A model generated the notes under the pieces. The model did not search any database and had not been told where the DNA came from. It was given only the letters and a program-made list of their open reading frames with translations. Positions 27,051-30,231 of a DNA stretch of 64,000 bases are shown piece after piece; position 1 is the first letter of the stretch, and each line of letters begins with the position of its first letter. This DNA is from Methylocaldum sp. 14B (GTDB lineage Bacteria; Pseudomonadota; Gammaproteobacteria; Methylococcales; Methylococcaceae). Location: NCBI RefSeq assembly GCF_002005105.1, contig NZ_MSCV01000009.1, forward strand, positions 62,001-126,000. The letters are read 5' to 3'. Position numbers and translations under genes: made by a program.

Positions 27051-27078
27051 CTTGAAAACGGGAAGGATCGCCCCAAAT
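27051..27078 (+). promoter_or_regulatory. Sigma-32 heat-shock promoter of htpG
   Basis: CTTGAAA (27051-27057), a 13-base spacer and CCCCAAAT (27071-27078) match the sigma-32 consensus (CTTGAAA, CCCCATNT) in all but one defined base. Transcription would begin near 27085. That is just before the palindromic element at 27093, which is therefore entirely inside the htpG 5' UTR. Confidence 0.7.
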
Positions 27079-27092
27079 TCTCATCGTCATCT

Positions 27093-27214
27093 TATTAACC
27101 CAGGGCAGGGATGTTCCGGCGCGGCGACAAGCCGCGTGAGCCAAGGCGGGACGTGTAACCGGCCTTGGCGGTGGTCCGTAAATACCAGGAGGGTATTTAC
27201 GGGCCTGATTAATA
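27093..27214 (+). mobile_element. TA-flanked MITE-like palindromic element, copy 3 (htpG 5' UTR)
   Basis: A 118-base element (27095-27212) starts TTAACCC, ends CTGATTAA and is flanked by TA on both sides. It contains a row of hairpins: GGGCA/TGTTC, CGCGGC/GCCGCG, GCCAAGG/CCTTGGC and a perfect 11-bp CCGTAAATACC/GGGTATTTACGG stem with AGGA loop. It lacks the 27-base terminal palindrome of the two longer copies at 29150 and 30083. It encodes no transposase, so it would be a non-autonomous element. Confidence 0.75.
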
Positions 27215-27253
27215 GAGTCGATCCACTTAAACCTCCGGAGGAAAGTCACTGCC

Positions 27254-29155
27254 ATGACCGTAGCAGAAAGCAAGGTAACTTTTGGGTTCGAAGCTGAGGT
27301 AAAACAGCTTCTGCACCTGATGATTCACTCCTTGTACAGCAACAAGGAAATCTTCTTGCGCGAGCTCATCTCGAACGGATCCGACGCTGCCGACAAGCTC
27401 CGCTTTATGGCACTGGGAAACGATGCGCTGTACGAGGGCGACAGCGAGCTGAAGATTCGGATCGAACACGACAAAACGAACCGGACTTTGACCATTACCG
27501 ACAACGGCATCGGCATGACCCGCGACGAGGTCCGCGAGAACATCGGGACCATCGCCCGCTCCGGCACCCGCCAGTTCTTCGAGTCGCTGACCGGGGACGA
27601 GGCGAAGGACAGCCAGCTCATCGGCCAGTTCGGCGTGGGCTTTTATTCCGCATTCATCGTTGCCGACAAAGTCACCCTGGAAACCCGCAAGGCTGGTCTG
27701 GACGCGGCCCAAGGGGTACGCTGGGAATCCAAGGGCGAAGGCGATTACACGCTGGAAACCATCGAAAAACCCGAGCACGGAACGAAGATTACGCTGCACC
27801 TCCGCGAAGGCGAGGACGAGTTCCTGGACGGTTGGAAACTCCGGTCGATCATACGCAAATTCTCCGATCACATTTCCTTGCCGATCCTGATGAAGAAGGA
27901 AGGGTACGGAGACGAAAAGCCGGCAGCGGACGAGTGGGAAACCGTCAACAGCGCTTCCGCCTTATGGGCAAAGAACAGGGATGAGATTTCGGACGAGCAA
28001 TACAACGAATTCTACAAGCACGTTTCCCACGACTTTCAGGAGCCTCTGGCTCGCCTCCACAGCCGCGTGGAGGGCACCAACGAATACACCCTTCTGCTCT
28101 ACATTCCGTCGCATGCGCCGTTCGATCTGTGGGACCGCGACGCGAAGCACGGCGTAAAGCTTTACGTGCGGAAGGTTTTCATCATGGAAGGATCGGAGAA
28201 GCTGATGCCCCGTTATCTCCGCTTCGTCCGCGGCGTGATCGACTCCGATTCGCTCCCCTTGAACGTTTCGCGGGAAATTCTTCAGGAAAACGCGCTGCTC
28301 GAAAAAATCCGCTCCGGCGCGGTCAAGAAGGTTCTCGGTCTGTTGGAGGACGTGGCCAGGAACGAGCGGGAAAAATACCAAGCTTTCTGGAAGGAATTCG
28401 GCCAGGTCATCAAGGAAGGTCCGATCGAAGACTTCAAGAACCGCGACCGCATCGCCAAACTGCTGCGCTTCGCCTCCACTCATAACGATTCCGATGTCCA
28501 GAACGTTTCCCTGGAGGATTACGTCGGCCGCATGAAGGAGGGGCAGGACAAGATTTACTATATTACCGCCGAGAATTACGCCGCGGCCAAAAACAGTCCG
28601 CACCTGGAAATCTTCCGTCGCAAGGGATTGGAAGTACTCCTGCTGCACGATCGGGTCGACGACTGGCTGGTCAGCTATCTCACCGATTTCGAAGGAAAGC
28701 ATCTGCAATCGGTGGCCAAGGGGGATCTGGACCTGGGCACCCTTGCCGACGAAGCGGACAAGAAGCATACCGAAGAAGCCAGCAAGGCGTTCCAGCCCAT
28801 TATCGACAAAATCAGGCAAACGCTGGGCGACAAGATCAGCGATGTGAAAATCAGCGCTCGCCTGACCGACTCTCCGGCTTGCCTGGTCAGCGAAACCTAC
28901 GGGCTAAGCCGTACCATGGAACGCATCATGAAATCGGCCGGGCAAGACGTACCGGCCAGCAAACCGATTTTCGAGATCAATCCCGATCATCCCCTAGTGA
29001 CAAGGCTCAAGGACGAGGCGGACGAATCGCGCTTCGCCGATCTGACCCATATTCTTTATGACCAGGCGGTCCTCAGCGAAGGCGGCCAGCTGGACGATAC
29101 CGCCGCCTTCGTCCGCCGCTTGAACGGCTTGCTTCAAGCTGTCATGCACTATTAA
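27254..29155 (+). CDS. htpG: Molecular chaperone HtpG (Hsp90)
   Basis: A 633-residue bacterial Hsp90. The N-terminal ATPase domain shows [26 protein letters not shown] and [11 protein letters not shown]. The middle domain ([12 protein letters not shown]) and C-terminal dimerisation domain follow, at normal length. The ribosome site GGAGGAAAG precedes the ATG by 12 bases and forms a CCTCCGGAGG palindrome. The message begins at a sigma-32 promoter and carries a palindromic element in its leader. Another copy of that element starts inside the stop codon region. The last codon and the TAA lie at the element edge. Confidence 0.98.
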
Positions 29156-29298
29156 CCCGGCCTATAAATATAGGCCGGGTTAATCCGGGGCAGGGATGCC
29201 CCGGCGCGGCGACAAGCCGCGTGAGCCCAGGCCGGGCGTGTACCGGGCCTGGGCGGCGGCCCGAAATACCAGGAGGGTATTGACGGGCCTGATTAATA
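29150..29298 (+). mobile_element. TA-flanked MITE-like palindromic element, copy 1 (htpG 3' end)
   Basis: The 145-base core (29152-29296) begins TTAACCCGGCC, ends GGGCCTGATTAA and is flanked by TA dinucleotides. A perfect 16-bp palindrome around AA occupies 29151-29184. Hairpins CCGGGGCA/TGCCCCGG, CGCGGC/GCCGCG, GCCCAGGCC/GGCCTGGGC and AATACC/GGGTATT follow. It is nearly identical to copy 2 at 30083, and it contains the htpG stop codon. Confidence 0.8.
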
Positions 29299-30082: not shown

Positions 30083-30231
30083 TATTAACCCGGCCTATAA
30101 ATATAGGCCGGGTTAATCCGGGGCAGGGATGCCCCGGCGCGGCGACAAGCCGCGTGAGCCCAGGCCGGGCGTGTACCGGGCCTGGGCGGCGGCCCGAAAT
30201 ACCAGGAGGGTATTTACGGGCCTGATTAATA
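30083..30231 (+). mobile_element. TA-flanked MITE-like palindromic element, copy 2
   Basis: The 145-base core (30085-30229) is almost identical to copy 1. The clearest change is TATTTACGGG instead of TATTGACGGG near the right end. TA dinucleotides flank both ends. It lies between the starts and stops of two minus-strand genes, in the upstream region of the small membrane protein gene. Confidence 0.8.

Follow-up and report, generated by a model that had tools for sequence, protein, structure and literature searches.

The window, that is, the whole stretch of DNA that was analysed, covers 64 kb of a 5.62-Mb genome and contains htpG, a gene for an Hsp90 protein whose closest relatives are Methylococcaceae records. 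The genes upstream of htpG were read as motA and motB. Between a sigma-32-like promoter and the start codon, the htpG leader holds a MITE-like repeat and a short palindrome that includes the Shine-Dalgarno (SD) sequence, and two further copies of the repeat follow downstream (Table 1). An earlier note on this DNA had placed the parts of the promoter (CTTGAAA at 27051-27057, a 13-nt spacer and CCCCAAAT at 27071-27078), the ACCTCC (27231-27236) and GGAGG (27237-27241) of the leader, the AGGAGGG of the element (27187-27193) and the ATG at 27254. All these positions were confirmed, as was its description of a mobile-like element lying entirely between the promoter and the htpG start.

Table 1. Features of the htpG locus, in coordinates of the window.
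Feature	Position	Strand	Basis or remark
Sigma-32-like promoter	27051..27078	+	CTTGAAA-N13-CCCCAAAT; same site in the same-genus leaders L139 and L140
MITE-like element copy in the htpG 5' UTR, 122 bp, without hairpin 1	27093..27214	+	Sequence comparison with the family
Decayed hairpin 2	27100..27119	+	Loop AGGGAT at 27107-27112, of ANGGAX form; three non-consensus positions (27102, 27114, 27115)
Element arm, predicted partner of SD and spacer	27104..27117	+	Pair probabilities at 37 C
Hairpin 3	27120..27136	+	CGCGGC-GACAA-GCCGCG
Hairpin 4	27140..27169	+	Helix covaries across the family
Hairpin 5	27173..27205	+	Pentaloop AGGAG at 27187-27191
ACCTCC-GGAGG, leader palindrome including the SD	27231..27241	+	Ancestral, older than the element
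3' part of SD and spacer, where the element arm is predicted to pair	27240..27253	+	Pair probabilities
htpG (Hsp90), 633 aa	27254..29155	+	Pfam HSP90, E 1.4e-138
Second element copy	29150..29298	+	At the htpG 3' end
Third element copy	30083..30231	+	3' of the DUF423 gene

The strict promoter pattern CTTGAAA-N11-16-CCCCA has one match in the window against 0.12 expected, and at least one match was obtained in 11 of 100 shuffles. A looser pattern, to which this shuffle control does not extend, occurs upstream of 22 of 30 htpG genes of the family (the window's own counted) and at 62 of 80 htpG loci in genome_contigs. In these comparisons the sigma-32-like promoter is conserved at htpG. Transcription would start near it and, since the promoter lies upstream of the element, the latter would be transcribed within the htpG leader. 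The promoter-to-ATG distance of 177 bases is the maximum of the family set, where the other 21 span 54 to 123 bases, and it also exceeds the genome_contigs maximum of 151 bases. The SD-containing 10-base palindrome CCTCCGGAGG (27231-27241) recurs in each of the three htpG leaders seen from the genus, with looser forms in some further leaders of the family. The same-genus genome G002, which is 93% complete, has no HtpG match at E 1e-100, and the gene may be lost there or missing from the assembly.

At full length, the element measures 148-149 bp, has a G+C content of 0.59-0.64 and consists of five hairpins framed by imperfect terminal repeats (TATTAAYCMGGCC) at TA targets. It starts with TATTAACCCGGCC and ends with GGCCTGATTAATA, the inverted repeats being recognized as TATTAACCCGGCC versus TATTAATCAGGCC. 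The other two copies in the window are 149 bp each, and the leader copy lacks the first hairpin, a loss that slippage at a flanking 9-base direct repeat (TTAAyCCGG) would explain. Hairpin 1 is also missing from a copy in G002 (L114). The region 27085-27225 folds much better than its shuffled versions (z -4.98), none of 200 equalling it. Since the RNAalifold consensus of 111 distinct rows was poor (-9.7 kcal/mol), covariation was counted on the named helices instead, using 109 of the 131 rows of the collection described below after removal of duplicates, of rows with more than 15 gaps and of the one copy each from G012 and G031. Covariation exceeded every one of 200 shuffles in helices 1 and 4, and it did not in helices 2, 3 and 5. 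In one copy (L181:1883-2033) the hairpin-5 loop reads CCCTCCTGG in place of CCAGGAGGG, so that the tip is inverted.

The repeat belongs to a large dispersed family. BLAST of this genome with the element returned at least 41 matches, and the terminal-repeat pattern has 102 exact matches in the genome against none for the reversed pattern. The copies or fragments collected number 131, of which 53 come from this genome and 78 from nine related genomes. The search covered 61 genomes at the levels of genus, family and order, and three other genomes belong to the genus of the window. Matches at E 0.01 or better occur in 13, ten of them strong (E 1.4e-10 or better) and three marginal; the finds of the family all lie within the order that was searched. 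No exact match of the 26-base element pattern occurs in viral_contigs, and plasmids gave no element match. A literature search returned no report of this Methylococcaceae repeat family.

Several traits point to a non-autonomous mobile element of the MITE kind, as the repeat is short, non-coding and dispersed in many copies. Of the 111 copies with both ends, most carry a terminal TA on each side, and the base outside TATTAA...TTAATA is a pyrimidine on the left in 107 and a purine on the right in 106; these outer neighbours suggest a TA-specific transposase as the mobilizer. Duplication of the TA agrees with one relative's site, in the leader of a lon gene, where G003 reads GGCT-TA-ATTT with a single TA and this genome GGCT-TA...TA-GTTT; the htpG site is too diverged for an exact reading. 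Mobilization may thus have been provided by a transposase of the IS630/Tc1 type, as far as the ends allow us to infer. An IS630-type parent was rejected for the three DDE_3 loci that the genome contains, as no autonomous element with the same ends and no plausible end pair within 3 mismatches is present there. According to the description in PMC2229807, similarity of MITEs to an insertion sequence is rarely found and is not a defining requirement. Singleton matches of the terminal repeat were also considered as ends of a longer autonomous element, and those fetched turned out to be ordinary or worn copies.

Known repeats offer parallels by description. Correia/NEMIS and RUP, the TA-flanked MITEs of Neisseria and Streptococcus, share with the element a length below 200 bp, dispersed intergenic positions, terminal inverted repeats, a TA at each end and a foldable RNA when transcribed (PMC2229807). 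Unlike them, the element has five hairpins, has no parent insertion sequence at the DDE_3 loci and is rich in G+C, where the MITEs described in PMC2229807 are rich in A+T. The ERIC/IRU sequences of enterobacteria, 127-bp palindromic intergenic repeats that reportedly affect mRNA stability when transcribed (PMC2229807), resemble it, again by description, in another host group.

The distribution of the copies around genes, whose positions were taken from a simple codon-model gene caller, is unbiased in strand upstream. In particular, among the 53 copies of this genome, 14 sense and 14 antisense copies lie within 200 bp upstream of a gene, and 16 and 9, respectively, lie downstream. This even upstream split makes the position at htpG look like an occasional outcome of unbiased intergenic insertion. 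A heat-shock regulon of element-bearing leaders was rejected, since the proteostasis genes among the 14 sense upstream copies are htpG and one lon paralogue (Pfam), the remaining 12 look mixed by sequence reading, and the pair was taken as chance. A worn fragment of the element (L168:1972-2069) lies 18 bp upstream of the start of a lon paralogue (Pfam), and it is missing at the orthologous site of G003, the single-TA site given above.

Comparison with relatives establishes that the element is an insertion at htpG. Both recovered same-genus htpG leaders (G003 and G001) keep the promoter and ACCTCCGGAGG but have no element. The insertion is accordingly specific to this lineage, and it is younger than the "anti-SD" bases. 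None of the other 29 htpG leaders examined in the family contains the element, and a 12-base element motif is absent at the 80 htpG loci of genome_contigs. A co-evolution of the "anti-SD" bases with the element is thus not supported, given the presence of ACCTCCGGAGG in both element-free leaders. Likewise, the AGGAGG loop is a family-wide trait of the element, with CAGGAGG in 106 of 131 copies.

The predicted fold of the leader hides the ribosome-binding site by a route that differs from the one first suggested. The SD is predicted to be hidden when the element is present, and the pairings of ACCTCC that the earlier note named are not the ones predicted. For ACCTCC, the probability of contact with the SD does not exceed 0.04, and at 37 C these bases are 74-99% unpaired. 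The bases of the AGGAG loop are free as well (99-100% unpaired), although a loop-leader pseudoknot is a structure that the program cannot score. Instead, the fold pairs 27104-27117 with 27240-27253 and, in addition, 27222-27224 with the SD. With the element, opening the SD would cost 7.3 and 4.5 kcal/mol at 30 and 55 C, compared to 2.3 and 1.5 without it and to 3.0 and 1.5 with a full consensus element in the leader. None of 49 other copies occludes the SD as strongly as the real one. Equal occlusion was reached by 2 of 150 randomly mutated elements and by 5 (30 C) or 7 (55 C) of 150 shuffled ones. Occlusion of the htpG ribosome-binding site by chance is therefore uncommon, not extraordinary, in these models, and its rarity would allow for selection and thereby for regulation.

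The calculations also point to the origin of the pairing. The three changes in hairpin 2, when introduced into the consensus, raise the cost of opening to 7.4 and 4.5 kcal/mol at 30 and 55 C, while their removal from the real copy lowers it to 2.4 and 1.5. Single reversions at 30 C bring it to 4.9 (27102) and 5.4 (27115), and to 7.9, a rise, for 27114. The SD-covering pairing would thus exist because substitutions broke hairpin 2, mainly those at 27102 and 27115. Loss of hairpin 1 was rejected as a cause, as its restoration brings no change (7.2 and 4.5).

Taken together, a single decayed and lineage-specific MITE-like insertion in the htpG leader is the explanation that we consider likely, with an effect, if any, that would be a steady lowering of translation and not a heat switch. 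A non-autonomous repeat would have inserted between the promoter and the SD in this lineage; the inserted copy would then have decayed, with substitutions destroying hairpin 2, and the arm thereby freed would pair with the SD and spacer. The result, if any, would be a steadily reduced translation of htpG, perhaps accompanied by processing of the leader at its long hairpins. The insertion, its absence from two same-genus relatives, the repeat family and the conservation of the promoter are established by comparison of sequences, the occlusion of the ribosome-binding site is a computed property, and any effect of the element on htpG expression would probably be little or mildly repressive. As an event, a MITE in a 5' UTR is of an already known kind; here it offers a clear example of such an element making the leader of a heat-shock gene longer in one lineage. 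Both the corrected pairing and the CsrA-type loops discussed below are testable.

Another reading, which we regard as unlikely, is that RNase III cuts the hairpins once they are transcribed, or that they protect or destabilize the mRNA, as reported for Correia/NEMIS and ERIC. The transcript would indeed hold long G+C-rich hairpins, and processing of such repeats has precedent (PMC2229807, PMC10969869).

A further possibility concerns the loops of hairpins 2 and 5, by which the element may be a mobile carrier of sites for CsrA/RsmA, with sense insertions bringing genes under CsrA control or titrating the protein; we hold this to be rather improbable. In the family, hairpin 2 reads CCGGGGC-AGGGAU-GCCCCGG and the tip of hairpin 5 CC-AGGAG-GG, and both present an A(N)GGAX loop directly on the stem. 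In particular, hairpin 2 has an ANGGAX hexaloop on a C-G-closed stem, the form described as bound with high affinity by CsrA/RsmE, and hairpin 5 fits the N-less pentaloop bound in RsmZ (PMC4005645, PMC7652899). In the SELEX consensus RUACARGGAUGU, which includes CARGGAUG, the core is CAGGGAUG, and the element loop contains it (PMC7652899). Intact loops are found in 99 (CANGGANG) and 106 (CAGGAGG) of the 131 copies, and in 83 both are kept; within the hexaloop, two of the six positions vary most, namely N and X. Such loops are absent from the 80 other hairpins of the window with a perfect 6-bp stem and a 5-6-nt loop, and csrA is present as a single copy in the genome. However, the motif was spotted post hoc, and in conservation the two loops come 38th of 144 and 41st of 145 windows and are thus not the best-conserved parts. 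The lack of covariation above shuffles in helices 2 and 5 and the lack of a sense-strand bias of the copies speak against the reading as well, and only 4 and 6 of the ten most diverged copies of this genome keep the two loops. Moreover, SELEX hairpins mostly have at most 4 contiguous pairs, so that poor binding may be expected of a 7-bp G+C stem (PMC7652899). The models of CsrB and RsmZ gave no match in the genome, a weak result as the RsmZ model scored above its cut-off in none of 14 controls, and a literature search on CsrA with MITEs or REP elements returned nothing relevant. In common with the hairpins of RsmZ, CsrB and hcnA, the element has C-G-closed stems that carry an ANGGAX hexaloop or an A(N)GGAX pentaloop; unlike them, its two hairpins of this type are part of a mobile repeat that is dispersed, and the stem is longer than in most SELEX ligands.

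At htpG itself, CsrA bound to hairpin 2 would compete with the fold that covers the ribosome-binding site, which we consider less probable still than binding to the family. In the real leader at 37 C, holding hairpin 2 would cost about 7 kcal/mol and bring the opening of the SD down to 2.7; against this, the fold predicted for htpG occludes the hairpin-2 motif. The widest form of the idea would have a transposable element spreading CsrA/RsmA-type sites among methanotrophs, with the htpG copy as a two-state leader in which CsrA, perhaps with heat, decides the translation of Hsp90, and to this scenario we give little credence. If the CsrA reading were true, the targets of a global RNA-binding regulator would have been dispersed by transposition and the origin of post-transcriptional regulons would become directly testable.

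The recruitment of the element as an RNA thermometer or switch, the idea of the earlier note with the pairing corrected, is very unlikely. Here the arm 27104-27117 would cover the ribosome-binding site in the cold and melt on heat shock, as a second layer over the sigma-32 promoter. The SD is indeed predicted to be occluded at low temperature, the cost of opening falling with temperature (7.9, 4.5 and 3.7 kcal/mol at 25, 55 and 65 C) whatever start and end points are assumed, and equal occlusion is uncommon in mutated or shuffled elements. For the leader of E. coli ibpA, a known ROSE thermometer used as a positive control, the cost on one span is 7.8 at 25 C and 4.4 at 55 C. However, a fall with temperature of the same size occurred among control elements, in 7 of 150 that were mutated and in 6 of 150 that were shuffled, and without any element the leader of G001 has a comparable drop (6.9 to 3.4, on one span). 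The predicted mean exposure of the SD rises only from 0.09 at 25 C through 0.28 at 55 C to 0.29 at 65 C, where the spacer arm is still fully paired, in calculations that leave the ibpA control unmelted too. The value for ibpA at 25 C ranges from 3.9 to 7.8 depending on the span; since this control does not melt in silico, the folding calculation cannot discriminate thermometers. The temperature response of the htpG leader is thus unremarkable in these models, and the structure is not kept among related genes, the insertion being confined to one lineage. Like ROSE-type leaders (ibpA), the htpG leader has a predicted occlusion of the SD from upstream, at a similar cost on one span; unlike them, its spacer arm has no predicted melting up to 65 C and its element is not conserved among relatives. 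None of 4227 Rfam families matches the window at its gathering score, and a literature search joining MITEs with RNA thermometers found none. As the spacer arm is paired at 65 C, a constitutive block or neutral decay fits better than a thermometer.

The downstream sites differ in relatives as well. In G003 and G001 no element follows htpG or the DUF423 gene, and the intergenic DNA there differs too; in G001 the site of the third copy is filled by other sequence and is not cleanly empty, and at the 3' end of htpG the differences extend past the element. The TATTAA of the second copy forms the last codon of htpG (Tyr) and its stop codon, and HtpG of G003 and G001 ends otherwise.
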